The position numbers and the translations under genes are program-made. 64,000 bases of DNA, from assembly GCA_035505375.1 (NCBI GenBank), contig DATJQV010000066.1, forward strand, positions 1 to 64,000, given 5' to 3'. The notes beneath the pieces are model-generated. The model searched no databases. It was not told where the DNA came from and worked only from the letters and a program-made list of their open reading frames with translations. This stretch comes from a bacterium (GTDB taxonomy: Bacteria; Hydrothermota; Tepidihabitantia; Tepidihabitantales; Tepidihabitantaceae). How positions within the stretch are numbered: the first letter of the stretch is position 1; every line of letters begins with the position of its first letter. Positions 20,325 to 48,101 of the stretch are shown here, piece by piece.

Positions 20325-23108
20325 ATGTTCGGAAGGAAAGTAGCTTGTGCAGCATCTATTTGCGCCCTGTGGAGCCTGCTCGTAGCCGGTGAGGCGCGGA
20401 CGCTCCCGGGCAGCAACCATCGGACCCGTAGTCAGTATTCCAATTACAACCACATCGCCCGAGTTCTGCGCGGGGAGCACCAAGCGGTCTGGCCGCCGCG
20501 CAGACCAATTGCGGAAAACAGGGACAGCCCCTCGGAGCGCTTGCGTCGGACGTGCCCGGGGCACCGTAGGAACGAGCAGCGCGGTACAGTCCCTGTTTTC
20601 CATGGCGGGAGATTCGACGACGCGTTCATGGTCGACACCGGCGTAGTGCTTGGGCCGGCATCCGGCTCGCAGTACTGCTACGGCGCGGCGTCGAACGGGA
20701 ACGGATGGCGCGTGATGTGGTCGGACGACAACAACTACTCTGTTCGTACCAGCGGCATTGGTACGGGTGGATCCTTGCTCGACCCTCAAGGAAGTCTGGT
20801 TGGACAAGAGCAGTATTCGTATACAGGACTGACCCGGTCGATCACCGGCACGGGTTCCGGCTTCATCGCGGTCTGGACTTCCGGGTACGACGATAGCATC
20901 TGGGCGGCGCGGCTGGACTCGGCCGGGACGCCCCTGGATTCGTTTCTCGTCTGGGCCAGCGATAGCGGGCAGAACACACCGGCGGTCGCGTTCGACGGCG
21001 ATTCCACCTGTCTTGTGGTGTGGACTGAAAACCCCTATGGGAACAGCGACATCTATGCGTCACGAGTGACGACCGGCGGCCGGGTCTTGGACACGGTGCC
21101 GTTTCCGGTGGCAAAGGAGTCCCTGCAATACGAGATGACGCCCACCGTTGCGTTCGGACACGGATTATTCCTGGTGGCATGGACTGCGTACGATACGATT
21201 TCGGCGACGGCCAAGGCGACAAGAGTATCGAGAACCGGCAGCGTACTCGGTCGCGCCATATTCCTGCGCCACGATCCGGCAAGCATACAGGCATTCCCGT
21301 CACTGGCATTCGGTGACACGTGCTTTCTTGCGTCATGGGCCGAAGGCACGGCGCAACCTGATATTTACGCGGCTCGCGTTTCCGTGTCCGGAAACCTTGT
21401 CGACACTACCGGCATACAACTGTGCAGCGGCCCGACCTATGACGAGTATCCATCGGTCGGGTTCGACGGCACCAGGTATCTTGTCATGTGGTGCGCGCTT
21501 GATACCACGTCGTACCGTGGTTCTCTGCGTGGCCGCAGGATGACGGTGGACGGCGTTCCGCTCGATTCAGGTCTGATTCGGCCCGACGCGGGAGGATTCT
21601 CCTGCGAGTACCCCGGCGTGGCCGCGGACCACGCGAACTTCCTCGTCGCCTTCAGCGAGTATGACACTCTCTCCTATGACTACGGCGTGAGCTGCACACG
21701 TATCAGCCCGGGCGGGGCAGTGCTCGATTCCGGCATCTTTTTCCCGTTGGGTCCGGATGCCCAATCCGGTCCAAGCAGCGCCTCCAACGGGACCGACTAC
21801 TTCGCCGCGTGGCTTGAGTCTGCGGACCAGGGCTCGGCAGTCAGCGCAGCACGGATTAGCGCCGGCGGCATCGTGCTCGACCCGGTCGGATTCCCGGTCA
21901 ACGATGCGCCGGGGAACAAGCAGAGTCTGGCGACCGGGTTCGGAGATTCACTCTATTTAGTGGCCTGGGCGGACTATCGGAGCGTAGATGGCAGTACGGA
22001 CATTTGGTGTGCGCGGGTAGACAGTAATGGGACGGTTCTTGACTCGGCGGGCATCGTGGTCTGCGCCGCGACGGGTTATCAGGACCAGCCCGACATCAGC
22101 TTCGACGGCCAGAACTTCCTGGTGGTCTGGCAGGACTATCGCTCCGGGATGACCGACAACATCTACGCGGCCCGAGTCAGCCCGGCCGGAGTCGTGCTCG
22201 ACCCGGGCGGCTTTGTGGTGGCTGCTGCCGACACGTTTGACGATGTGCAACCGGCAGTCTGCTTCTCGGGAAGCGACTTTCTCGTTACTTGGCCAGGTAC
22301 GAACACCAATGCATATGGGAGCAGAGTCTATGGAGCTCTTGTCAGCCCTGCCGGCCAGGTTACCAAGCCGAGGTTCGTAGTCGGCGGCGCGGACAACTAC
22401 CAGACCTCGCCATCGGTTGCGCGCGGGCCGTCCAGCTCGCTTGTGGCATGGGAGGACGACCGCTCCGGCTATAGCAGCGTATACGCAGCCCGAGTCCGGG
22501 CTGACGGGACCGTTCCGGACCCCAACGGCATATTCATGGATTCGACCGGCTATACCTCACCCTCCCCACGCGTCACTTCCAGCGGGTCCGCATTCAAAGT
22601 GCTGTGGCGTCGCCAGAACTACGCCGGAGATACCACCTACTTCGTCGCGGCCCAGGTTGACACGGCCGGAAACGTCGTCCGGAAAGGAGATTGGTTCGGG
22701 CTGCCCGGTTACGACGACGGGTTCGACGCGGTCTATGGCAGCGGCCCGGATTTGTTGCTGCTGTTCAGTTGCTACACCGACACGGCGATGGGTCATTACT
22801 ACGGCGTCGACCGCCTGTGGGGAACGCTCGGAGTGCCACTCGGAATCCAACATGCCGACAGCCGGCAGTTGAGGAAAACGACCAGCGGGGCCACAGTGAT
22901 CCACGGCGTGCTGGTGCTGGGCGCAGTAGACAGTAGACAGCAGACAGTAGACAGGACGGAACTGCTGGACGCAGCCGGACGGAAGGTCGCCGAGTTGCAC
23001 ACAGGCACGAACGACGTGAGCCGCCTCAGCCCCGGCGTGTACTTCGTCCGGGCTGAAAGCCGTAAGCTGTCAGCCGCAAGCTGTCGCAAGGTGGTCATCG
23101 CGAGATAG
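20325..23108 (+). CDS. Giant secreted repeat protein (VVWxDxR-type) with T9SS sorting domain
   Basis: A 927-aa protein from the ATG at 20325 (AAAGGAGGAGG 4 bases upstream), with signal peptide MFGRKVACAASICALWSLLVAG. About 13 repeats of 50-55 aa follow, each of the form FLVVWxDYRS...IYAARVSPAGVVLD, which should build beta-propeller blades. A sorting domain closes it (ELLDAAGRKVAELHTG, GVYFVRAE, RKVVIAR). An 89-bp inverted-repeat element (20513-20601) is inserted in frame between signal peptide and first repeat. Heptamers lie at 22925-22952 and 23058-23085. The next gene (23118-25700) is a tandem paralogue 9 bases downstream. Function unknown; probably surface-attached. Confidence 0.82.
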   Translation: MFGRKVACAASICALWSLLVAGEARTLPGSNHRTRSQYSNYNHIARVLRGEHQAVWPPRRPIAENRDSPSERLRRTCPGHRRNEQRGTVPVFHGGRFDDAFMVDTGVVLGPASGSQYCYGAASNGNGWRVMWSDDNNYSVRTSGIGTGGSLLDPQGSLVGQEQYSYTGLTRSITGTGSGFIAVWTSGYDDSIWAARLDSAGTPLDSFLVWASDSGQNTPAVAFDGDSTCLVVWTENPYGNSDIYASRVTTGGRVLDTVPFPVAKESLQYEMTPTVAFGHGLFLVAWTAYDTISATAKATRVSRTGSVLGRAIFLRHDPASIQAFPSLAFGDTCFLASWAEGTAQPDIYAARVSVSGNLVDTTGIQLCSGPTYDEYPSVGFDGTRYLVMWCALDTTSYRGSLRGRRMTVDGVPLDSGLIRPDAGGFSCEYPGVAADHANFLVAFSEYDTLSYDYGVSCTRISPGGAVLDSGIFFPLGPDAQSGPSSASNGTDYFAAWLESADQGSAVSAARISAGGIVLDPVGFPVNDAPGNKQSLATGFGDSLYLVAWADYRSVDGSTDIWCARVDSNGTVLDSAGIVVCAATGYQDQPDISFDGQNFLVVWQDYRSGMTDNIYAARVSPAGVVLDPGGFVVAAADTFDDVQPAVCFSGSDFLVTWPGTNTNAYGSRVYGALVSPAGQVTKPRFVVGGADNYQTSPSVARGPSSSLVAWEDDRSGYSSVYAARVRADGTVPDPNGIFMDSTGYTSPSPRVTSSGSAFKVLWRRQNYAGDTTYFVAAQVDTAGNVVRKGDWFGLPGYDDGFDAVYGSGPDLLLLFSCYTDTAMGHYYGVDRLWGTLGVPLGIQHADSRQLRKTTSGATVIHGVLVLGAVDSRQQTVDRTELLDAAGRKVAELHTGTNDVSRLSPGVYFVRAESRKLSAASCRKVVIAR
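20513..20601. mobile_element. 89-bp REP-like element inserted in frame in a secreted-protein gene
   Basis: A perfect 13-bp inverted repeat (GGAAAACAGGGAC at 20513-20525, its complement at 20589-20601) brackets 63 bases with an internal GTGCC/GGCAC hairpin. The element is translated in frame as a Lys-free, Arg-rich insert (ENRDSPSERL...) that has no counterpart in the paralogous gene at 23118. The layout resembles REP/MITE-type elements mobilised by Y1 transposases; one such transposase lies at 47436-48101 but its own terminal repeats differ. Confidence 0.6.
22925..22952. repeat. Heptanucleotide repeat in secreted-protein gene
   Basis: Units AGTAGAC, AGTAGAC, AGCAGAC, AGTAGAC in frame (coding DSRQQTVD) in the linker before the sorting domain. 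The same units form the left arm of the S23 cassette at 35145-35190. Confidence 0.85.
23058..23085. repeat. Heptanucleotide repeat in sorting-domain loop
   Basis: Units AGCCGTA, AGCTGTC, AGCCGCA, AGCTGTC between GVYFVRAE and RKVVIAR of the preceding gene. Confidence 0.8.
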
Positions 23109-25884: not shown

Positions 25885-26232
25885 CCGGTCTTCAAACCAC
25901 TCAGCAAACCACTCGGTAATTCACTCGGCGAGTCACTCGGCGTGTCACTTGGCAAGTAACTTACCGTCTCACTCGGCAAGTCACTTACCGACTCACTAGA
26001 CGAGTCACTGGGTAAGTCACTCGGCAACTCACTGGGCAAGTAACTGGGCATGTCACTTACCATGTCAGTCGGTAAGTAACCAGGCGAGTCACTCACCGAG
26101 TCACTCGGTGACTCACCAGGCAAGTGACTCGGTAAGTCACTCGGTAAGTGACTGGGGGAGTCACTGGGGGAGTGACTGGGGGAATCACTGGGGGAGTGAC
26201 TTACCGAGTGCTGGCGCAGGTCACGCTGCATG
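25885..26232. repeat. 12-base-period degenerate array 1, about 29 units
   Basis: From about 25897 to 26208 the sequence falls into 26 consecutive 12-base units without a single indel, consensus TCACTCGGYAAG (= AAGTCACTCGGY rotated). Weaker units extend to 25885 and 26232. Ten-base direct repeats CACGCTGCAT flank it (25874-25883 and 26222-26231), 348 bases (29 units) apart and in phase. The minus strand is open throughout and would encode a tetrapeptide repeat (SPSD/SPSH/LPSD). A TATAAT lies 4 bases before a minus-strand ATG at 26231. The units diverge a lot but keep their phase. A second array with a related consensus is at 46921-47268. Confidence 0.85.
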
Positions 26233-34434: not shown

Positions 34435-35181
34435 ATGGCCGACCACTCCTCCATCGAATGGACTGAGGCGACGTGGAACCCGGTAACGGGGTGCTCGCAC
34501 ATCAGCGCGGGGTGCGCGCACTGCTATGCGGAACGGTTCGCCCTGCGGCTGCAGGCCGCGGGCATGCCGAAGTACAAGAACGGGTTCAAGGTGACGACCC
34601 ACGAGAGCGAGTTGCTCACTCCGCAGTCTTGGCGCAAGCCGCACGATGTATTCCTCTGTTCCATGGGTGACCTTTTCCATGAGAAGGTGCCATCGGGATT
34701 CATCCAGCGCGTGTTCGACGTGATGAAGTCGTGCCGACAGCACCGATTCCAGGTTCTCACCAAGCGCAGTCAACGGCTCAGGCAGTTGGCTCCGACGCTA
34801 CCTTGGCCTGAGAACATCTGGATGGGAGTGACGGTCGAGGACTCTCGGAACGTGAAGCGCATCGCCGATCTCGTCGCGACGCCTGCCAGGGTTAAGTTCC
34901 TTTCAGTGGAGCCGCTACTGGGCGAAATTCCGGACCTCCCTCTTGGTGACATCGACTGGGTAATTGTCGGCGGCGAGTCCGGACCGGGAGCGCGACCAAT
35001 CAGGAAGGAATGGGTCATTTCCATCCGGAATCAGTGCAAGAAGGCCGGGGTTGCCTTCTACTTCAAGCAGTGGGGCGGGACGAGGAAGCACGCGAACGGC
35101 CGCACACTCGACGGCAGGATATACGACGCGATGCCACGGCAGGCAGTAGACGGTAGACAGCAGACAGTAGACAGCATGTAG
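34435..35181 (+). CDS. Gp37/Gp68-type (DUF5131) three-cysteine protein
   Basis: A 248-aa protein of the phage Gp37/Gp68 (DUF5131) family. The N-terminal motif IEWTEATWNPVTGCSHISAG, then CAHCYAERF, gives Cys20-x6-Cys27-x2-Cys30, a likely iron-sulfur site related to radical-SAM proteins. Further marks are MGDLFHE, FQVLTKRSQRL, WMGVTVEDSRN, FLSVEPLLG and VGGESGPGARP. The usual partner TcmP is absent here; instead DUF488 and two hypotheticals precede it. The last 14 residues (AVDGRQQTVDSM) are encoded by a heptamer repeat that forms the left arm of the S23 cassette. Confidence 0.85.
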   Translation: MADHSSIEWTEATWNPVTGCSHISAGCAHCYAERFALRLQAAGMPKYKNGFKVTTHESELLTPQSWRKPHDVFLCSMGDLFHEKVPSGFIQRVFDVMKSCRQHRFQVLTKRSQRLRQLAPTLPWPENIWMGVTVEDSRNVKRIADLVATPARVKFLSVEPLLGEIPDLPLGDIDWVIVGGESGPGARPIRKEWVISIRNQCKKAGVAFYFKQWGGTRKHANGRTLDGRIYDAMPRQAVDGRQQTVDSM

Positions 35182-35190
35182 CAGACAGCG
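35145..35190. repeat. Left heptamer arm of S23 cassette 1
   Basis: Six unbroken units (AGTAGAC, GGTAGAC, AGCAGAC, AGTAGAC, AGCATGT, AGCAGAC). The right arm (35625-35652) carries the inverse units GTCTACT. The arm supplies the C-terminal codons and stop of the Gp37/Gp68 gene. Confidence 0.9.
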
Positions 35191-35207
35191 AACTCCAGCG
35201 GGCTACG

Positions 35208-35612
35208 TCACGCGCGACCGACGATTGAGACAATCAGACCATGCAGCATTCGACCAACCACGTCCAAAGAGGCCGTGACGGGTTCGACGTTAGTCACGTA
35301 ACCGAGGTCACGACTAAGGAGCAGGTAGTAGCGTAATTCTTCCAGCGAGCCCTGGGAGATGTTGTAGAACCTCACCTTGTCCGGACTGCTCCGCTTCTTG
35401 AAGCCTTCGGCGATGTTCGCGGGCACCGATACGGCCGCCCGCCGCATCTGTGACACGAGTCCGAACTGCTCCTCGCGAGGGAAGCGCGCGGTCATGCGAT
35501 ACACCACGAGCGTGAGTTCGTGAGCCCTCTGCCAGACCGAGAGATCCTCAAACCTCTCCAGCTTCCGTACGCCAGGCTTCTCTGCCCCCTGGCCCCCTTC
35601 ACACTCCTTCAT
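35208..35612 (-). CDS. S23-type four-helix-bundle protein, cassette 1
   Basis: A 134-aa protein of the 23S rRNA intervening-sequence (IVP/S23) four-helix-bundle family: FEDLSVWQRAHELTLVVYRM, FPREEQFGLVSQMRRAAVSV, PANIAEG, FYNISQGSLEELRYYL. Relatives are coded within IVSs of 23S rRNA and also occur free in genomes; the fold is shared with the Avd protein of diversity-generating retroelements. Here the gene lies alone between inverted heptamer arms (35145-35190 and 35625-35652). The first 16 residues are repeat-like and may be an extension. A second copy is at 38973-39338. Confidence 0.9.
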   Translation of the reverse strand: MKECEGGQGAEKPGVRKLERFEDLSVWQRAHELTLVVYRMTARFPREEQFGLVSQMRRAAVSVPANIAEGFKKRSSPDKVRFYNISQGSLEELRYYLLLSRDLGYVTNVEPVTASLDVVGRMLHGLIVSIVGRA

Positions 35613-35624
35613 GTGCCCTTCCCT

Positions 35625-35652
35625 GTCTACTGTCTACTGCCTACAGTCTACT
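35625..35652. repeat. Right heptamer arm of S23 cassette 1
   Basis: Units GTCTACT, GTCTACT, GCCTACA, GTCTACT, inverse to the left arm. It contains the stop codon of the phosphoesterase gene that follows. Confidence 0.9.
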
Positions 35653-37366
35653 TCATGAGCATCAGCCCCAAGCCGTGCGGGTCGTAGGTGATGGGCTGCC
35701 AGTCGGCATTCGCCTTGCGGCCTGGTTGCTTGCGCCGGAAGTTGAGGCCCCAGACACTGCCCGGCTTCGCAGTGACTCCGAATTGGGCCAGCGGCAGCTT
35801 GGCTTCCACCGACCAGTAGTTCTTGCCTTTCGTCGTCTTAACGTCCACGTCAGCGTTCCAGGACATGTCCACATCCATCTTGCCCGCCGGGCTGGCCGTT
35901 ATCTTCTGGTCCAGCACGACCGCGTTCGGGTTGAAGTATATCTGGTAGATGACGCCTCGTGATGTATCAGGCGCAAGGAACCAGCCGACGCAGTCGTCAA
36001 GGTGCACTCCCTTGTCGCGCTCGGTGGCATTGGCCCTGAGACTCTCCGGATGCGGGTCGAAGCAGACAGCGGCGAGGTAGAGATCCGTTGAGTCGGCCGC
36101 GAAGTAGAACCGGACCGAGTCGGTCTTCATCGATTCGCTGTCGTTGGTGAAAAGGTCCATAACCGGCTTCTGCCAGAGTTTCTCGATGACCTTGCCGTCA
36201 ATCACCGGCGGCTTCCTGACGAAGCCGCACCGGGCGGTGCGGGCCACGTCGAGCGAGGCGGTAATCGGACTCGACTTGCCTTTGGCGTACGGGAACCGGA
36301 GCGTCAGCTTGGGCGCCGGGAACGGCCGGCCCGCGCCGGCCACGGCAAATCGGTACTCGGCTTCGGCTCCGGGAGCGACGCTGACTGCCGCCGCCTTGGG
36401 TGAGACATTCCAGGTGGCAGGTACGTCCCAGCGGAGCGTGTCCTGAAGCGGAGTCTCAAGCGGCCGGTTCCTGATGATGAGCGTCACGGTATCAGAAGCC
36501 ATGAGATTGTCGCCGACGAGCACCGGCCGGCTGAACCTGAGCCCGGTCAGCTCGTTCCGGTCCACGGACTGGATGTCTTCCCAGGTCACGTCGTTCCACG
36601 CCCGCTTCTCTCCGCCGAGCAGAATCGGCTCGATGGTGATGCCCTTCTCGTCGTCCACGGTCACCATCGCCCAGTGATAGAGAATGCCGGTCGGGCCCGT
36701 CTCGGTTTCACCGCCGGAGCTGCCGATCGCCGTGTACTTGATGCCGTCATAGGTCGCGCTGAAATACTCGTGGATGTGGCCGTTGAACACCGCGTTCACG
36801 CCGTACTTCTTGAACAGGCTGTGCAGGGTATCCGGCTTACCCTCAGCAAGAGAGGCGGTCCAAAAAGGCTTGTGGTAGAAGACGAGCTTGAACTTTGCCT
36901 TGCGCGCAGCGGCCAGGTCGGAAGCCAGCCAGTTGAGCTGCTCTGCCGGCAGCGATTCGCTCGCTTCCCAGCGGCTGGCGTCGAGCACGGTGATGTGCAG
37001 GCCCTTGTAGTCGAACGAGTAGTAGGGTTTGCCTGCGTTTCGTTCATACGGACCTAGTGCGTTGTCGAAGGTGATGTCGTGGTTGCCCGGCGTGTAGTAG
37101 AATGGCATCTTCAGCGGGGCAATAATGGCCTTGTATTCCTTCCACTCCTGGTCGAGCTTCAGCGTGTCGGTCCGCTCGTAGCCTTCAATGTGGTCGCCGA
37201 CGGTGATGACGAAATCGGGGTTGGCCTTCGCGACCTCGGCCACGATCTTCTCGTGGACGCTGTCCTGGTGGTCGCCGGTCCGGTCGCCGAGTATCGCGAA
37301 CCTGACCGGCGCCGCGACCGCCACCACCGCCAGCAGGAACACAGTTGTCATAATCACTCTCTTCAT
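35648..37366 (-). CDS. Secreted calcineurin-like phosphoesterase with C-terminal CBM9/DOMON-like domain
   Basis: A 572-aa protein with signal peptide MKRVIMTTVFLLAVVAVAA and AGGAGA 5 bases before the ATG. Residues 25-270 form a metallophosphoesterase: ILGDRTGDH, TVGDHIEG, YTPGNHDITF and VFNGHIHEYF provide the two-metal site. A linker beta domain follows, then a C-terminal beta sandwich (PPVIDGKVIEKLWQKP ... SVEAKLPLAQFG ... GLNFRRKQPG), as in CBM9/DOMON-like domains of secreted hydrolases. It ends LGLMLMK without a sorting domain. It probably acts on extracellular phosphoesters or nucleotides. Its stop codon lies within a heptamer repeat. Confidence 0.85.
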   Translation of the reverse strand: MKRVIMTTVFLLAVVAVAAPVRFAILGDRTGDHQDSVHEKIVAEVAKANPDFVITVGDHIEGYERTDTLKLDQEWKEYKAIIAPLKMPFYYTPGNHDITFDNALGPYERNAGKPYYSFDYKGLHITVLDASRWEASESLPAEQLNWLASDLAAARKAKFKLVFYHKPFWTASLAEGKPDTLHSLFKKYGVNAVFNGHIHEYFSATYDGIKYTAIGSSGGETETGPTGILYHWAMVTVDDEKGITIEPILLGGEKRAWNDVTWEDIQSVDRNELTGLRFSRPVLVGDNLMASDTVTLIIRNRPLETPLQDTLRWDVPATWNVSPKAAAVSVAPGAEAEYRFAVAGAGRPFPAPKLTLRFPYAKGKSSPITASLDVARTARCGFVRKPPVIDGKVIEKLWQKPVMDLFTNDSESMKTDSVRFYFAADSTDLYLAAVCFDPHPESLRANATERDKGVHLDDCVGWFLAPDTSRGVIYQIYFNPNAVVLDQKITASPAGKMDVDMSWNADVDVKTTKGKNYWSVEAKLPLAQFGVTAKPGSVWGLNFRRKQPGRKANADWQPITYDPHGLGLMLMK

Positions 37367-38110: not shown

Positions 38111-38980
38111 CTATTGGAACCGGTTCCAGCCCGGGTGTTTGGCATCGGCCTGCCCGCCGAGCTCGATGAAGGCGGTTTCGATGTTCAGACGGTGCGCTTC
38201 CTTGTTCTGGTCGCGGTCAGCGTATGTCATGCCGGCGCAGTCTCTGAGAGCATCGGAGATGCGTCGCCCTGCTGCCACTGCTGCTTCCACTCTGCGCTGC
38301 AGTTCAGCAAGGTAGGCGCGGTCCGTGTCGAACCTCGCCCTGACTTCCGACCGGCCGCTGGCCGGCGTGCCGTGGCCCGGCACGAGCGTGGTCACATCAA
38401 GTTGCGCAAGTCGGTCGAGAGTCTGGCGATACGCCTCCAGGCTGTGCATCACAAATGGAATCTCGATGTCACTCAGCATGTCCGCGGCCCAGAGGGTGGT
38501 CTCGCTTTGGTCATAGACGACCAGTTGTTCGGGCGCGTGGCCCGGCGCGTGTAGCAGTTCGATCGTCCTGTCCCCGAGCCTGAGCTCGAGTTGGTCGGCG
38601 AAAGTCTGGTCCGGCTCGCGCAGCAGGAAGGGCATGTCACGTTGCACTCCCGACTGCCGTTCCCACTCGGTAACCTGGCGCTCGATTCGTGCACCTGACT
38701 CGGCCAGCACCGCCTGGCTCTCCTGCAGCTGGACGACCGGCACTCCCGGAAAGTACTCGGGACCGAGAACGTGGTCCCAGTGGTTGTGGGTCACGACCAG
38801 GTACGTCGGGCTTGCGCCGTGCGCGTAGATGTGGGACCGCAGCCGGTCAATCTCGTCAGGGAAAAGGCCAGGGTCGATGAGCAGAGCGTCCCTGCCGTAA
38901 ACGAGAACGCCGGCGTTGTAGGACATGGAACGGCTTGGAAAGAGAGTAAGGGAGGAGAGAGGAGGGAGGAGTTCAGTCAT
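38111..38980 (-). CDS. Metallo-beta-lactamase-fold hydrolase
   Basis: A 289-aa protein with the zinc motif VVTHNHWDHVLG (HxHxDH) near 85, LLHAPGHAPEQLVVYD near 170, and VPGHGTPASG near 225. The substrate is not evident; glyoxalase II- or quinolone-signal-type thioester hydrolysis is a possibility. The start is the ATG at 38980 that overlaps the TGA of the S23 gene (ATGACTGA). Codons 5-11 (LLPPLSS) come from the heptamer arm of S23 cassette 2, so the cassette has probably replaced the native start; an internal ATG (MSYNAG) is an alternative. Confidence 0.8.
   Translation of the reverse strand: MTELLPPLSSLTLFPSRSMSYNAGVLVYGRDALLIDPGLFPDEIDRLRSHIYAHGASPTYLVVTHNHWDHVLGPEYFPGVPVVQLQESQAVLAESGARIERQVTEWERQSGVQRDMPFLLREPDQTFADQLELRLGDRTIELLHAPGHAPEQLVVYDQSETTLWAADMLSDIEIPFVMHSLEAYRQTLDRLAQLDVTTLVPGHGTPASGRSEVRARFDTDRAYLAELQRRVEAAVAAGRRISDALRDCAGMTYADRDQNKEAHRLNIETAFIELGGQADAKHPGWNRFQ
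38945..38972. repeat. Left heptamer arm of S23 cassette 2
   Basis: Units AGTAAGG, GAGGAGA, GAGGAGG, GAGGAGT ending at the stop codon of the S23 gene. Inverse to the arm at 39345-39381. Confidence 0.85.
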
Positions 38981-39338
38981 CGCGCGATAATGCTCCAATG
39001 AGACCATTCAACATTCGACTCAACTCATCCAGCTTGCTCTGAAGCTCGCCGGCCGTCTTCGGTGAAATGTACCGCAGTCGGGCCGCGACTTCGACCTGCG
39101 TATCGAGCTCGCTGAGCGAGCCGCGTGACGTGTACAGGAAGCGGACGTATTCCTTGCGCCCTTTTCTGGCCGATCCCTCCGCTATGTTGCTGGGAATAGA
39201 CAGGGCAGCCCTCCGCATCTGTGACACCATCCCGAATTTCTCGGCGGCCGGGAATCGCGCAGTGACCTCGTGCACCTGAATGACGAAATCCATTGCCTTC
39301 ATCCATACCGTGAGTCGGCGGTGCGGCTTCTCATCCAT
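38973..39338 (-). CDS. S23-type four-helix-bundle protein, cassette 2
   Basis: A 121-aa IVP/S23 family member: LTVWMKAMDFVIQVHEVTARFP, EKFGMVSQMRRAALSIP, SNIAEGSARKG, FLYTSRGSLSELDTQ. It is clearly related to the copy at 35208-35612 (QMRRAA, NIAEG, GSLxEL). The gene fills the space between two inverse heptamer arms with almost no spare sequence. Its TGA overlaps the ATG of the metallo-hydrolase. Function unknown; possible RNA-binding bundle. Confidence 0.9.
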   Translation of the reverse strand: MDEKPHRRLTVWMKAMDFVIQVHEVTARFPAAEKFGMVSQMRRAALSIPSNIAEGSARKGRKEYVRFLYTSRGSLSELDTQVEVAARLRYISPKTAGELQSKLDELSRMLNGLIGALSRDD

Positions 39339-39341
39339 TTC

Positions 39342-39962
39342 TCATCTCCTCCCTCCTCCCTCACTCCCTGCTCCCTGAACCTCTGAGTGCCGAAAGCAAC
39401 CGACGAGGTGATCGTTCACCATCCCTGCCGCCTGCATGAATGCGTAGCAGATGGTCGAACCGACGAAGCGGAACCCGCGCGCCTTCAAGTCCTTGCTCAT
39501 TGCATCGGACTCGCGGCTCCGGCAGGGAATCCGGCCGATGGCCCGCCATCGGTTCTTCTTGGTCTTGCTGCCGGTGAACTGCCAGATGTAGCGGTCGAAG
39601 CTGCCGTACTCCTGTCTTACCGCCAGGAAGGCACGCGCGTTGGCGATCGTGGCTTCTATCTTCATGCGGTTGCGGATGATGTCGCAGTCGGCGAGCAGTT
39701 GTTGTACCTTGCGGCTGTCGAACCTCGCCACCTTGCGCGGGTCGAAGTTCGCAAATGCCCTTCGGAATCCCTCGCGTTTCTTCAGGACGATTGCCCAGCT
39801 CAGTCCGGCTTGAAAGGCATCGAGCACGAGGAACTCAAACAGCTTCCGGTCGTCGTGCAGCGGCACGCCCCATTCGCTGTCGTGGTAGCGAATCATCAGC
39901 TCGTTGTCCGCCGGCCACGGGCAGCGTCGTACGGGCTTTGCAGTTATGGTGTCAGCGGACAT
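39342..39962 (-). CDS. tag: Tag, DNA-3-methyladenine glycosylase I
   Basis: A 206-aa enzyme removing 3-methyladenine from DNA. Seen: RCPWPADNELMIRYHDSEWG (zinc ligands Cys14 and His27), FEFLVLDAFQAGLSWAIVLKKRE, SKDLKARGFRFVGSTICYAFMQA, and GMVNDHLVGCF with the C-terminal zinc ligands. The final ten residues are repeat-encoded by the neighbouring S23 cassette arm. Upstream on the minus strand, TTGACC-17-TAACGT ends 9 bases before the ATG, again suggesting a very short leader. Confidence 0.93.
   Translation of the reverse strand: MSADTITAKPVRRCPWPADNELMIRYHDSEWGVPLHDDRKLFEFLVLDAFQAGLSWAIVLKKREGFRRAFANFDPRKVARFDSRKVQQLLADCDIIRNRMKIEATIANARAFLAVRQEYGSFDRYIWQFTGSKTKKNRWRAIGRIPCRSRESDAMSKDLKARGFRFVGSTICYAFMQAAGMVNDHLVGCFRHSEVQGAGSEGGGRR
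39345..39381. repeat. Right heptamer arm of S23 cassette 2
   Basis: Units TCTCCTC, CCTCCTC, CCTCACT, CCCTGCT, CCCTGAA, inverse to the arm at 38945-38972. It forms the last codons of the tag gene (encoding GAGSEGGGRR). Confidence 0.85.
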
Positions 39963-42070: not shown

Positions 42071-43051
42071 GTGAAACCGGACAACAGTTGCAGCCATTCC
42101 ATCTCGGTCGAGGACATCGACCCCCTCGCCCTGCTCGGCCCGGCCGACGTCAATCTGACTACCCTCGGCAAGCACTACAAGACAGCGATTGTCGTGCGCG
42201 ACGGCCGGATCATGCTGCACGGCCCCAAGACCGAAGAAACCGAGCTGATGAGGCTGCTCGACCGGCTGCTCGCGCGCGTCCGGCAGGGCGAACCCCTGAG
42301 CCCGGAGCTCATCAACGCTGAGGTGGACCGGATCCGCCGCTGCCGCGAACCCGGCGCGGGCGATTCCGAGCCGGAAGTGCTCGCGATCAAGACTCCCCGG
42401 AAGGCGATATTCGCGAAGACGCGCAACCAGCGGAGCTACCTGCAGGCGATGCAGCGCCATGACATCATCCTCGCGGTCGGGCCGGCCGGAACGGGCAAGA
42501 CCTATCTCGCGGTCGCCGCGGCGCTTGAATCCCTCGTTTCGGGCCACTCGAGTCGCATTGTCCTCACCCGGCCCGCGGTGGAGGCCGGAGAGTCGCTCGG
42601 CTACCTGCCCGGCACTTTCAAGGAGAAAGTAGACCCCTACCTGCGTCCGCTCTACGATGCCCTGTTCGACATGATGCCGATGGAGCGGGTCCAGCGCCTG
42701 ATTGAGCAGGAAGTTATCGAGGTCGCACCGCTCGCGTTCATGCGGGGCCGGACTCTATCCGACGCCTACATTATTCTCGACGAGGCGCAGAACACCACCT
42801 CGACTCAGATGCGCATGTTCCTGACCCGGCTCGGCTGGAACTCGAAGGCCATCGTCACCGGTGACATCACCCAGATCGACCTTGCCGCTGAGCACAGGTC
42901 CGGCCTGATTGAGGCGGTCGAGCGGCTCGAAGGCGTCACCGGCATCAGCATCGTCCACCTGACCGACGCCGACGTGGTCCGGCCGCCGCTGGTCTCGCGC
43001 ATCATCCGCGCGTACGAGAACCGGAAGGCTACCGGCGCTGATGCGTCCTGA
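42071..43051 (+). CDS. PhoH-like ATPase
   Basis: A 326-aa protein: an N-terminal KH-like region (1-100) and the PhoH P-loop domain with ILAVGPAGTGKTYLAV near 135 (Walker A), RPAVEAGESLGYLPG, and YIILDEAQNTTSTQMRMFLTRLG (Walker B). The start is GTG at 42071, downstream of the predicted transcription start. It precedes ybeY with an 11-base overlap, a widespread bacterial pairing linked to rRNA processing and RNA quality control. Confidence 0.92.
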   Translation: MKPDNSCSHSISVEDIDPLALLGPADVNLTTLGKHYKTAIVVRDGRIMLHGPKTEETELMRLLDRLLARVRQGEPLSPELINAEVDRIRRCREPGAGDSEPEVLAIKTPRKAIFAKTRNQRSYLQAMQRHDIILAVGPAGTGKTYLAVAAALESLVSGHSSRIVLTRPAVEAGESLGYLPGTFKEKVDPYLRPLYDALFDMMPMERVQRLIEQEVIEVAPLAFMRGRTLSDAYIILDEAQNTTSTQMRMFLTRLGWNSKAIVTGDITQIDLAAEHRSGLIEAVERLEGVTGISIVHLTDADVVRPPLVSRIIRAYENRKATGADAS

Positions 43052-43433
43052 AATCTACGGGACGCAGGACAGCCGCCTGCGTGCCGATATCCGGCGTCTC
43101 TGCCGCCGGATTGACCGTGACCTCAAGCCGGAGCCCTCGGTCGTGAACGTTGTCTTCGTGACCGATCCACAAATACACGCGCTTAATCGCCGGTTCCTGA
43201 GACGCGACCGGCCGACGAACGTCATCTCATTCAACTCGCCTGAGTCGCATTTGCCGGGCGAACCCAGGCTTCTCGGCGAGGTCTACGTCTCGCGCGACCG
43301 GGCGCGGGCCCAGGCGCGCGAATACGGTGTCACCTACGCGTCGGAACTCCGCCGACTCGTGCTCCACGGGTTGCTGCATCTGCTCGGCCTGACCCACCGC
43401 GAGATGGAACCGTACTATAACAAATACCTTTGA
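43041..43433 (+). CDS. ybeY: YbeY, rRNA-maturation endoribonuclease
   Basis: A 130-aa metalloprotein with the zinc motif HGLLHLLGLTH and the upstream PTNVISFNSPE block. It matures 16S rRNA 3' ends and aids ribosome quality control. At 130 aa it is slightly short; the C-terminus stops soon after the motif. It overlaps phoH by 11 bases. Confidence 0.93.
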   Translation: MRPEIYGTQDSRLRADIRRLCRRIDRDLKPEPSVVNVVFVTDPQIHALNRRFLRRDRPTNVISFNSPESHLPGEPRLLGEVYVSRDRARAQAREYGVTYASELRRLVLHGLLHLLGLTHREMEPYYNKYL

Positions 43434-43443
43434 GGACAATGAC

Positions 43444-43513
43444 CAGTTTGCAGTTTGCAGGTCGCAGTGGGGTCAGGACATGACTGCCAACTGCCAACTG
43501 CAGACTGCAGACT
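43444..43513. repeat. Inverted heptamer element (empty form)
   Basis: Left arm CAGTTTG, CAGTTTG, CAGGTCG, CAGTGGG (43444-43471); right arm ACTGCCA, ACTGCCA, ACTGCAG, ACTGCAG (43483-43510). The arms are inverse to each other and can fold into a stem with a short loop. It lies between ybeY and the transporter gene. Confidence 0.8.
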
Positions 43514-45927: not shown

Positions 45928-46860
45928 GTGCGTAGAATCGTCAGGTCCGAGGCCGTCTGTCTCAGCGTCAAGGACTACCACGAGTCGTCCAAGCTCTTGA
46001 TGTTCTTCACGCTTGAATACGGGAAGGTAAGCTGCCTGGCCAAAGGCGCGCGCCGGCTCAGGAGCAAGTTCGGCGCTGCGCTCGATCTCTTCGCTCAGTC
46101 CCGCATCATATACTACATGCGCGAGAACCGCACGCTCTTCACGCTCTCCGACGCCGAGCTTGTCCATTCCTTCAGCTGCTCTCAACTCCCCACTCCCGAC
46201 TCCCTGTCCCGCTTCCTCGCCGCCGAACAGATGACCGAATTCGTTCTCCGGGTCACGCAGCCCAACGACCCGAGCCCACATCTCTACCGGCTTCTTCTCA
46301 GCTACCTCTCAACCCTTGAGTCGCTCCCGCCGTATTCCTCAACTCCCGACTCTCGACTCTCGACTCCCTGTTCTGCTCTTGTCTGCTCCTTCCTGCTCAA
46401 GGCCGCGAGCTTTCTTGGGTTTCGGCCCGAACTCCGTCGCTGCCTCATCTGCCAGCGTCCCATCGAGAGCCAGCGCCCGGCCTACTTCGACCCCGGACGC
46501 GGCGGCATCGTCTGCCCGCGCTGCGCCGGTGAGAACCCGCGGGGGACAAGGCTCGATCCTGCCGGCCTCGACGCCATCGCCTTCCTGCTCTACACCCCTG
46601 CCGCCGAGATCGCGCACGTCTTCTCGTCTGGTCCGGAGCCGACAACCGGAGACAACCGCCAAGAACGCCAAGGCCGCCAGGATTCCGATCCGGAGAATCT
46701 CCAATCTCCGCCTCCCGTCTCCTCATCCGCTAATCCACAATCTACAATCTACAATCTGCAATCTCCTCTCGACCTCGTCCTCGGTTTCCTTGGCCACCAC
46801 TTCGACCCGCTCGTGCTCAACTCCTTCCGCTGGCACGCGGGCCTCGAGCGCAAAGTTTAG
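45928..46860 (+). CDS. recO: RecO, recombination mediator with repeat-encoded insertions
   Basis: A RecO protein of 310 aa if it starts at GTG 45928 (a TTG at 45904 lies in the repeat element). The N-terminal OB fold (EAVCLSVKDYHESSKLLMFFT, KGARRLRSKFG) and the C-terminal helical/zinc part (RRCLICQRPI, CPRCAG) are visible. RecO loads RecA by annealing to SSB-coated DNA. Three stretches are repeat-encoded insertions: SQLPTPDSLS (46184-46211), SSTPDSRLSTP (46340-46367) and a 40-residue stretch containing NPQSTIYNLQSP (46737-46764 and before). The last also holds a NAKAAR-type repeat in another frame. The insertions lie in loops and the frame is kept. Confidence 0.85.
   Translation: MRRIVRSEAVCLSVKDYHESSKLLMFFTLEYGKVSCLAKGARRLRSKFGAALDLFAQSRIIYYMRENRTLFTLSDAELVHSFSCSQLPTPDSLSRFLAAEQMTEFVLRVTQPNDPSPHLYRLLLSYLSTLESLPPYSSTPDSRLSTPCSALVCSFLLKAASFLGFRPELRRCLICQRPIESQRPAYFDPGRGGIVCPRCAGENPRGTRLDPAGLDAIAFLLYTPAAEIAHVFSSGPEPTTGDNRQERQGRQDSDPENLQSPPPVSSSANPQSTIYNLQSPLDLVLGFLGHHFDPLVLNSFRWHAGLERKV
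46184..46211. repeat. Heptanucleotide repeat in recO (a)
   Basis: Units AACTCCC, CACTCCC, GACTCCC, TGTCCCG in frame. Confidence 0.8.
46340..46367. repeat. Heptanucleotide repeat in recO (b)
   Basis: Units CAACTCC, CGACTCT, CGACTCT, CGACTCC in frame. Confidence 0.85.
46737..46764. repeat. Heptanucleotide repeat in recO (c)
   Basis: Units ACAATCT, ACAATCT, ACAATCT, GCAATCT in frame; a looser GAATCTCC/CAATCTCC run precedes it from 46695. Confidence 0.85.
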
Positions 46861-47430: not shown

Positions 47431-47435
47431 CGGGC

Positions 47436-48101
47436 ATGGCGAGAATAGCGCGAGTGGTTGCGGCGCAGGTGCCGCATCATGTTGTCCAGCGTGGGAACCG
47501 GCGCCAGCCGGTCTTCTTCAGCACAGCCGACTACAAGGCGTATGTACGAATGATGGCCGCATGGTGCGGGCAGGAGAAAGTCGAGATCTGGGCGTACTGC
47601 CTGATGCCCAACCATGTGCACCTCGTAGCAGTACCCGATACCGAACAGGGTCTTGCCCGGGCGATCGGCGAGGCCCACCGTCGGTACACAGTCCGAGTAA
47701 ATCAGCGTGAGAACTGGCGCGGTTACCTCTGGCAGGGACGCTTCTCATCATACCCGCTCGATGAGCAGTACCTGCTGGCAGCGGTCCGCTACGTAGAACT
47801 GAATCCGGTGCGGGCCGGTCTGGTCGAGCGGCCATGGCAGTATCCCTGGTCCAGCGCGGCGGCTCATGCACGCGGTCGTGACGATACACTAGTGAAGGTG
47901 AAGCCGATGCTGAACCGGGTAGAGGACTGGCGCGAGTATCTCACGGGCGAGCAGGACAGCACCGACCTGGAACTCATTCGCCGTCACACGCGCAACGGTC
48001 GTCCCCTGGGGAACAGCGACTTCGTCGAATCGCTCGAAGCCAGGACTGGCCGAACGCTGGCTCCACTCAGGCGCGGACCCAAGCCGCGGCAACGGACTTG
48101 A
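47436..48101 (+). CDS. REP-associated tyrosine transposase (Y1/HUH)
   Basis: A 221-aa Y1 transposase. The HUH metal site is His60-x-His62 (LMPNHVHLVAVP), the catalytic tyrosine probably Tyr84 (AHRRYTVRVN), with the family WQGRFSSYPLDEQYLLAAVRYV block at 115-135 and the conserved ELNPVRAGLV. It nicks single-stranded DNA at hairpin ends and can mobilise REP-like sequences. The C-terminal tail is basic (RRGPKPRQRT). It is intact and lies between the 12-base array and a broken gene. Confidence 0.93.
   Translation: MARIARVVAAQVPHHVVQRGNRRQPVFFSTADYKAYVRMMAAWCGQEKVEIWAYCLMPNHVHLVAVPDTEQGLARAIGEAHRRYTVRVNQRENWRGYLWQGRFSSYPLDEQYLLAAVRYVELNPVRAGLVERPWQYPWSSAAAHARGRDDTLVKVKPMLNRVEDWREYLTGEQDSTDLELIRRHTRNGRPLGNSDFVESLEARTGRTLAPLRRGPKPRQRT

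Follow-up and report, generated by a model that had tools for sequence, protein, structure and literature searches.

Inverted heptamer arrays around S23 genes: a probable small mobile element outside ribosomal RNA genes

Two S23 cassettes in the window

The 64,000-nucleotide stretch of bacterial DNA analysed here (the window) contains two S23 cassettes. In each of them the S23 gene is the sole gene between two inverted arrays of short tandem repeats, and the genes adjoining both cassettes encode proteins, not rRNA. The parts of the cassettes are as follows.

35144-35193, plus strand: left arm of cassette 1, a degenerate CAGTAGA/GTAGACA heptamer array (TRF period 7)
35208-35612, minus strand: S23 (four-helix-bundle, IVP) gene of cassette 1, 134 aa (PF05635 E=3e-36, TIGR02436 E=7e-35)
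35623-35652, minus strand: right arm of cassette 1, the inverse heptamer array CTGTCTA (TRF period 7)
38945-38971, plus strand: left arm of cassette 2, GGAGGGA-type heptamers (TRF 38952-38971)
38973-39338, minus strand: S23 gene of cassette 2, 121 aa (PF05635 E=8e-39)
39346-39376, minus strand: right arm of cassette 2, inverse CTCCTCC heptamers

The initial annotation had described inverted heptamer arms with S23 as the only gene between them at 35145-35652, and both the coordinates and the alignment agreed with this description. The TRF core of the left array, made of CAGTAGA units, spanned 35144-35174, and the array reached about 35193. The best inverted alignment of the two arms matched at 27 of 30 bp with a score of 22.5, which none of 3000 Markov-shuffled flank pairs equalled (maximum 16.0). 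The neighbouring genes are convergent. The stop of the DUF5131 gene (TAG, 35179-35181) falls within the left arm and that of the metallophosphatase gene (35648-35650) within the right arm, confirming that the arms provide the stop codons of both neighbours. In relatives with an empty site, homology to the window started at 35652-35657, at the edge of the right arm.

A similar architecture with other heptamers had been noted at 38945-39381, where we found cassette 2. Its arms had an inverted score of 16.5, a value that the 3000 shuffled flank pairs likewise failed to reach. The N-terminal coding part of the downstream metallo-beta-lactamase gene lies in the left arm, and the start of this gene overlaps the S23 stop (ATGA). 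At the other end, the tag (3-methyladenine glycosylase) gene has its stop, at 39342, in the right arm. Unlike cassette 1, cassette 2 ends a neighbouring gene with one arm only, the right one. Elsewhere in the window, long degenerate 12-bp/24-bp tandem arrays (CACTCGGCAAGT, AGTCACTGGGGG; 22 copies) occupy 25898-26201.

Inverted arms at S23 genes of other genomes

To our knowledge, the S23 gene has otherwise been known only from insertions in rRNA genes. We scored arms by local alignment of the inverted flanks and took loci scoring at least 14 as armed; the cross-locus control gave a mean of 8.9-9.1 and a 99th percentile of 15.5. The 3.6-Mb genome yielded 25 PF05635 matches, of which 22 were full S23 genes. 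Inverted arms were present at 20 of these 22, and the flanks of the remaining two were visibly periodic. Of 241 non-S23 ORFs (90-250 aa, from 836 kb of contigs), only 5 reached the threshold; two of these five were accounted for, since one was a RAYT that has ends of its own and the other a GxxExxY gene. Three open frames of 209-257 aa (L023, L024 and L025) showed a weak PF05635 match and carried no arms; they are perhaps domesticated copies or a separate family.

The initial annotation had proposed to test S23 genes of related genomes for inverted 7-base repeats at both ends. Of the congeneric loci 23 of 25 were armed, and of the loci in the family 10 of 13. A single scan of GTDB genomes with an S23 alignment returned 80 loci, 79 with usable flanks, and 55 of these 79 loci from other lineages were armed (27 named phyla). 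The armed phyla include an archaeon (ANME-1), CPR lineages, Cyanobacteria, Proteobacteria, Bacteroidota and Planctomycetota. Armed loci were therefore the majority in the genus, in the family and elsewhere, contrary to the possibility that most S23 genes of relatives lack arms. In the pooled set, in which many of the genomes are MAGs, 108 of 139 loci were armed, and about 20-30% of S23 loci had no clear arms at this threshold. Where arms were clear, the unit was 7 bp at 87 loci, 8 bp at 19, 6 bp at 2 and 9 bp at 1; 5 loci were undecided. Purines predominated on the sense strand of the arm upstream of S23 (median 0.67).

Movement and empty sites within the genus

Comparison of congeners showed that the S23 cassette moves between loci. 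The loci L074 (genome G001) and L087 (G004) differ and have in common a 434-bp element alone, at 82% identity. Similarly, L079 and L088, both in G001, are alike (85%) over a 402-bp block covering the element, and only short scattered matches were seen outside it.

Empty sites, which the initial annotation had proposed to look for, were found within the genus and on cyanobacterial plasmids. The clearest congeneric case is the phoH-ybeY junction:

43024-43136, no strand assigned: empty phoH-ybeY site in the window, from congener comparison

This junction is empty in the window's genome (G000), in G003 and in G005. It holds S23 with GTTAGGA arms in G001 and G004, and a gene-less hairpin in G002. 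The G002 hairpin is short; it consists of GTTAGGA-type heptamers as in G001 and G004, plus a remnant resembling an S23 end. Clean empty sites such as these show that arms do not stand at the S23 loci without the gene in all outgroups. In G001 (L368/L371), another repeat (TTTGTCATTCTGAGGCG...) was apparently inserted into the S23 cassette at this junction, forming a nested insertion.

Both window cassettes also lack counterparts in some congeners. The metallophosphatase gene of G001, G004 and G005 ends without cassette 1. Cassette 2 is missing in G004 (G004:C256), where its flanks lie 78 bp apart. The cassette 2 site carries the GAGGGAG type in G000, G002 and G005, and a sister S23 with GTTAGGA arms in G001. 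This G001 gene groups with a G004 element from another locus.

Insertions resolved to the nucleotide in cyanobacteria

The claim that the cassette inserts at gene ends could be followed directly, at the nucleotide level, on cyanobacterial plasmids. Plasmid C of Trichormus variabilis ATCC 29413 carries a 428-bp insert relative to plasmids of Nostoc linckia NIES-25 and Tolypothrix PCC 7601, and the flanks of the insert are 98.4-99.7% identical to these empty-site plasmids. The S23 gene within the insert is AVA_RS28115. The empty site reads AAAGTAATTAACAAA. The filled site reads AAAGTAAT, followed by an insert that opens with AAATCAGAATTCAG, contains S23 and closes with GAGTTCTTCTTTG, and then by TAATTAACAAA. 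A candidate duplication of 4-5 bp, (G)TAAT, lies over the TAA stop.

The same insertion was seen in Scytonema NIES-4073 with a visibly shorter left array, and as a decayed copy with truncated S23 in Nostoc C052. In plasmid pNsp_c of Nostoc ATCC 53789, whose left flank is 99.6% identical to C052, the insertion lies at TAATG, a stop plus start, with an imperfect duplication. Further candidate duplications were TTCTAR and TACTAAG. Together with (G)TAAT and TAATG they make four sites at which the length varies from about 3 to 7 bp, some duplications being imperfect. This variable length speaks mildly against a DDE enzyme.

S23 cassettes were also observed within CRISPR-Cas operons. One separates cas10 from cmr3 in Picosynechococcus PCC 7003 (L410) and another cas6 from cas4 in Pseudanabaena galeata (L412); PCC 7002 pAQ6 and ABRG5-3, respectively, have no S23 there.

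Arms and the S23 protein tree

Each S23 locus has a repeat of its own. Nitrospirae, Zixibacteria and Chloroflexi, however, have S23 genes closely related to that of cassette 1, and these carry the same GTAGACA-type arms. Between lineages, repeat similarity rose with S23 identity, with a Mantel value of 0.234 against a mean of 0.082 and a maximum of 0.202 in 500 GC-block permutations. Unit length (7, 8 or 6 bp) required 8 changes on the S23 tree, compared with 19.7 +/- 1.1 (minimum 17) for shuffled labels. An octamer clade lies within the window's family, and hexamers occur in one pair. The octamer-armed clade comprises L005, L068-L071, L073, L075, L076, L081, L082, L084 and L174. Both repeat sequence and unit length thus track the S23 tree, and the arms and the gene are therefore a single inherited unit; this analysis shows their co-inheritance. 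The most conserved residues of S23 are polar (Q54, R57, S61, N65, E68, S88 and E91).

Gene-less arrays and hairpins

Arrays of period 7 occurred in the genome at 289 per Mb, compared with 1-32 per Mb for periods 5, 6, 8, 9 and 10; Markov sequence contained no such arrays. Arrays without S23 outnumber S23 genes about 10-fold or more. Two cases lie in the window:

22924-22954, plus strand: CAGTAGA array without S23 (TRF), 97% identical to the left arm of cassette 1
43444-43513, no strand assigned: CAGTTTG / ACTGCCA arrays without S23; congener G004 has arrays of another heptamer there

Arrays without S23 and with differing heptamers also occupy orthologous intergenic spots in two comparisons, L185 with G000:C66:37366-37431 and L087 with G000:C66:43456-43520, as if the arrays had been rewritten in place.

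The dispersed arrays matched the S23 arms of their own genome in 42-45% of cases in G000 and 45% in G001, compared with 10% for permuted units. Matches to the arms of congeners were fewer (23-27% for G001 arrays, 14-25% for G000 arrays). More than half of the dispersed arrays matched no S23 arm of their own genome. Most arrays in the genome were solitary, with an inverted partner at most 60 bp away in 11-17%. Within the family, array density rose with S23 number, from 20-50 per Mb where a genome had 1-10 S23 matches to 230-289 per Mb where it had 25-31; genome size, GC and RAYT content confound this comparison. Three family members that lack S23 (G010, G013 and G014) had no arrays over 320 kb, and G016, also without S23, had a single array in 45 kb. 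The position of arrays relative to genes was left unused as a test, a crude ORF caller having put 89% of them in coding sequence.

Dokdonella immobilis, a cultured species, provided a second view of these repeats. The heptamer of its own S23 arms gave 144 pattern matches at no fewer than 35 sites; among 11 other S23 genomes, 10 had none and one had 2 matches. Sixteen of the 20 sites retrieved were simple inverted pairs; an arm typically comprised some four units, and the spacer between the arms measured 30-123 nt. The hairpins (L169, L385-L404) have conserved arms, usually of about four GGATTCG units each and then AAANAGCG. We found no homology of their spacers to one another or to S23, and these unrelated inner sequences set the hairpins apart from ordinary MITEs. 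A simple origin of gene-less hairpins as deletion derivatives was considered and set aside; it fits the G002 site only, and the unrelated Dokdonella spacers speak against it.

A parallel family with GxxExxY genes

Nuclease-like genes of the GxxExxY type (TIGR04256, PD-(D/E)XK_3) also lie between inverted tandem arrays. Arms scoring at least 14 were found at 46 of 60 loci, compared with 3.7% of cross pairs. Loci of this family include G000:C4:53377-53821 (L298), G000:C81:106384-106765 (L307) and L292-L359, with examples in Nitrospirae, Zixibacteria, Acidobacteria, Chloroflexi, Gammaproteobacteria and Verrucomicrobia. Like the S23 cassettes, they combine one small gene with inverted tandem arrays, occur in several phyla and have repeat themes common to lineages. 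Unlike them, they carry an unrelated protein and units of 8-10 bp, with the themes CACAGAGAA, CGCAGATTA and CACCAAGA. Thus, two unrelated small proteins share one architecture with different unit lengths. Both genes are widespread, and we know of no function for either. No arms flanked the genes of four long PDDEXK_3 proteins (271-295 aa) that were examined. A lone short array of the 9-mer ACCGCCAAG, of the kind that flanks GxxExxY genes, lies at 46655-46679 of the window.

Companion enzymes and domains

The S23 gene matched the PF05635/bAvd family only, and no recognised nuclease, transposase or reverse transcriptase (RT) domain was found in it. Its remote DivGenRetAVD match scored 36-46 bits, below the cut-off of 80. 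We also looked for enzymes accompanying S23. An RVT_1 match was absent from the S23-bearing genomes G002, G005, G007, G009, G011 and G017, and a companion reverse transcriptase was rejected because several S23-rich genomes had no match. A Y1_Tnp match was likewise absent from S23-bearing G009 (1 S23), G011 (2) and G012 (7). The window itself has one such gene:

47435-48101: RAYT (Y1_Tnp) gene with its own inverted ends GGGGACACAATACTTA, unlike the heptamers

Heptamers were not found at the ends of this RAYT. Its own ends, together with S23-bearing family members that have no RAYT, led us to reject RAYT as the mobiliser. Neither an RT nor a Y1 transposase consistently accompanies S23, so cutting may be performed by S23 with host replication or repair, or by some nuclease.

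Proposed mechanism and alternatives

We consider it likely that an S23 gene, together with the inverted heptamer arrays on its two sides, forms one small mobile element, similar to the intervening sequences (IVS) of rRNA genes and located outside rRNA, with S23 as its probable helper. Such an element, of about 420-450 bp, would insert at gene ends, typically at stops or at stop/start junctions inside operons, and would produce a short target duplication, as suggested by the best-resolved insertion sites. Its arms would turn into intergenic linkers, leaving the neighbouring genes intact. S23, predicted to be a four-helix-bundle pentamer by homology to 2GSC (XCC0516, the solved structure of Xanthomonas campestris S23p; PMC4990558), would most likely act as the element's own helper, recognising the repeat of its lineage and bringing both arms together. 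Through host replication or repair, or a nuclease in trans, the element might then be copied into another site. Where a copy loses the gene, a heptamer hairpin or a solitary array would remain; mobilisation in trans, comparable to that of REPINs by RAYTs, is probable for some of these gene-less copies. We infer the binding of S23 to the repeats, its requirement for movement and the chemistry of that movement.

An RNA device is a possible alternative, which we regard as rather unlikely. Here the transcript stem would be cut by RNase III, S23 would act on the RNA or be released from it, and mobility would proceed through an RNA intermediate with an RT in trans. The predicted RNA folds of both window cassettes indeed pair the arms (z -2.4 and -2.9), and the upstream neighbour is co-stranded with S23 at 109 of 122 loci. 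The Coxiella IVS is excised by RNase III within a heptamer-bearing stem (PMC4990558). The remote match of S23 to bAvd/DivGenRetAVD, the Avd of diversity-generating retroelements, points in the same direction, and candidate duplications of variable length would suit target-primed reverse transcription. However, arm mismatches showed no G-U excess (89 G-U-compatible on the sense strand, 109 not), so selection on the RNA stem was rejected as positive evidence. Moreover, S23 can be inserted antisense relative to its neighbours (L423), and the RVT_1 match is missing from six S23-bearing genomes.

If the arrays came first, by slippage or another process at gene ends, S23 might home into existing inverted arrays and take on the local arms. 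The excess of S23-less arrays, the differing repeats at orthologous spots and the change of unit copy number by whole repeats (L420 compared with L407) would fit such an order of events. It is made improbable by the tracking of the S23 tree by repeat sequence and unit length across phyla and by the finding of one S23-plus-arms element at different loci, and it is weakened by precise empty sites without an array. We give still less credence to the arms being bidirectional terminators or insulators that shield operons and are selected around any small insertable gene, with S23 as a passenger. The arms do lie at gene ends and are rich in inward stop codons (0.068 per base, compared with 0.033 outward). 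This density is explained by purine-rich composition, since position-permuted units gave 0.0665 compared with 0.0698, and arm stop codons were rejected as a selected feature. Arms are also nearly absent around other small ORFs, and a terminator function requires neither a 7-bp periodicity nor a unit length that follows the protein. Least probable is mobilisation of the arrays and S23 by a host RAYT/Y1 transposase; RAYT genes are abundant in the genus, but this is largely refuted by the ends of the window RAYT, which carry no heptamers, and by S23 in the three genomes without a Y1_Tnp match.

In this reading, the S23 gene and the heptamer repeats belong to a single mobile element, for which cultured strains provide exact empty and filled sites. 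This opens the role of S23, as well as the origins of rRNA IVS and of heptamer arrays, to direct tests. S23 elements may explain the 7-bp repeats scattered through many bacterial genomes, and movement of DNA by S23 with no known transposase, if it occurs, would involve a new chemistry. More tentatively, at a level of confidence that stops short of an even chance, S23 and GxxExxY cassettes may represent a new class of transposable element with a single gene, no known transposase and inverted short-unit tandem ends. In this class the protein would set the unit length (7, 8 or 6 bp for S23, 8-10 bp for GxxExxY) and drive thousands of gene-less arrays, and rRNA IVS would be one landing site. If real, such a class would explain a large part of the short tandem repeats between bacterial genes that are so far unaccounted for.

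Comparison with known systems

We found nothing relevant to an S23/inverted-repeat mobile element in the open-access literature. Published heptamer arrays may nevertheless be compared with the gene-less arrays described above. In the portions of the published accounts considered here, GGGAATC arrays in Xanthomonas and GGGGA(T/C)T arrays in Nostoc are dispersed and unexplained (PMC4692102), as are TAACTGA heptamer arrays in Beggiatoaceae (PMC4679880). These portions describe the arrays as intergenic and the heptamers as degenerate, and draw no link to S23 (PMC4692102, PMC4679880). The Xanthomonas GGGAATC heptamer is reported there in 70-75 inverted pairs, mostly of four units (70 in X. campestris ATCC 33913; PMC4692102). 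These pairs share the design of the Dokdonella hairpins.

The REP/REPIN and RAYT system (PMC3116915, PMC2817692) is a close parallel. In both systems one gene, the helper or, for S23, the putative helper, lies between inverted repeat copies, the repeat is also dispersed without the gene as hairpins, and the repeat type tracks the protein lineage. Unlike RAYTs, S23 is unrelated to Y1 transposases and has no known catalytic domain, and the ends of its element are tandem arrays of 7-8 bp units rather than single palindromes. The S23 element also differs from a classical insertion sequence (DDE or HUH) in having no recognised transposase. It differs from a diversity-generating retroelement as well, since S23 scores below the Avd cut-off and several S23 genomes have no RT match.

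The 23S rRNA IVS of Coxiella burnetii, compared here through its published description, is also a close parallel (PMC4990558). Its S23 gene is likewise the sole ORF, in an element of 428-444 nt with paired inverted ends. Tandem GACAGAT heptamers precede the S23 ORF within a 28-bp terminal stem; the position of tandem heptamers upstream of the S23 start, the variable repeat number and the sporadic distribution are all shared with the cassettes (PMC4990558). Unlike rRNA IVS, the cassettes described here lie at gene ends in intergenic sites, with a repeat specific to each locus, and have many gene-less relatives, exact empty sites and candidate target duplications. Rfam detected no rRNA at 20 further S23 loci, mostly weak-armed, and the link to IVS therefore rests on the published Coxiella case. 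The suggestion of a free-standing IVS-like element gained support from the arms and the empty sites, and its link to IVS was strengthened by the heptamers in the Coxiella stem (PMC4990558). By this comparison with Coxiella, rRNA IVS would seem to be one of the places where the S23 element lands.
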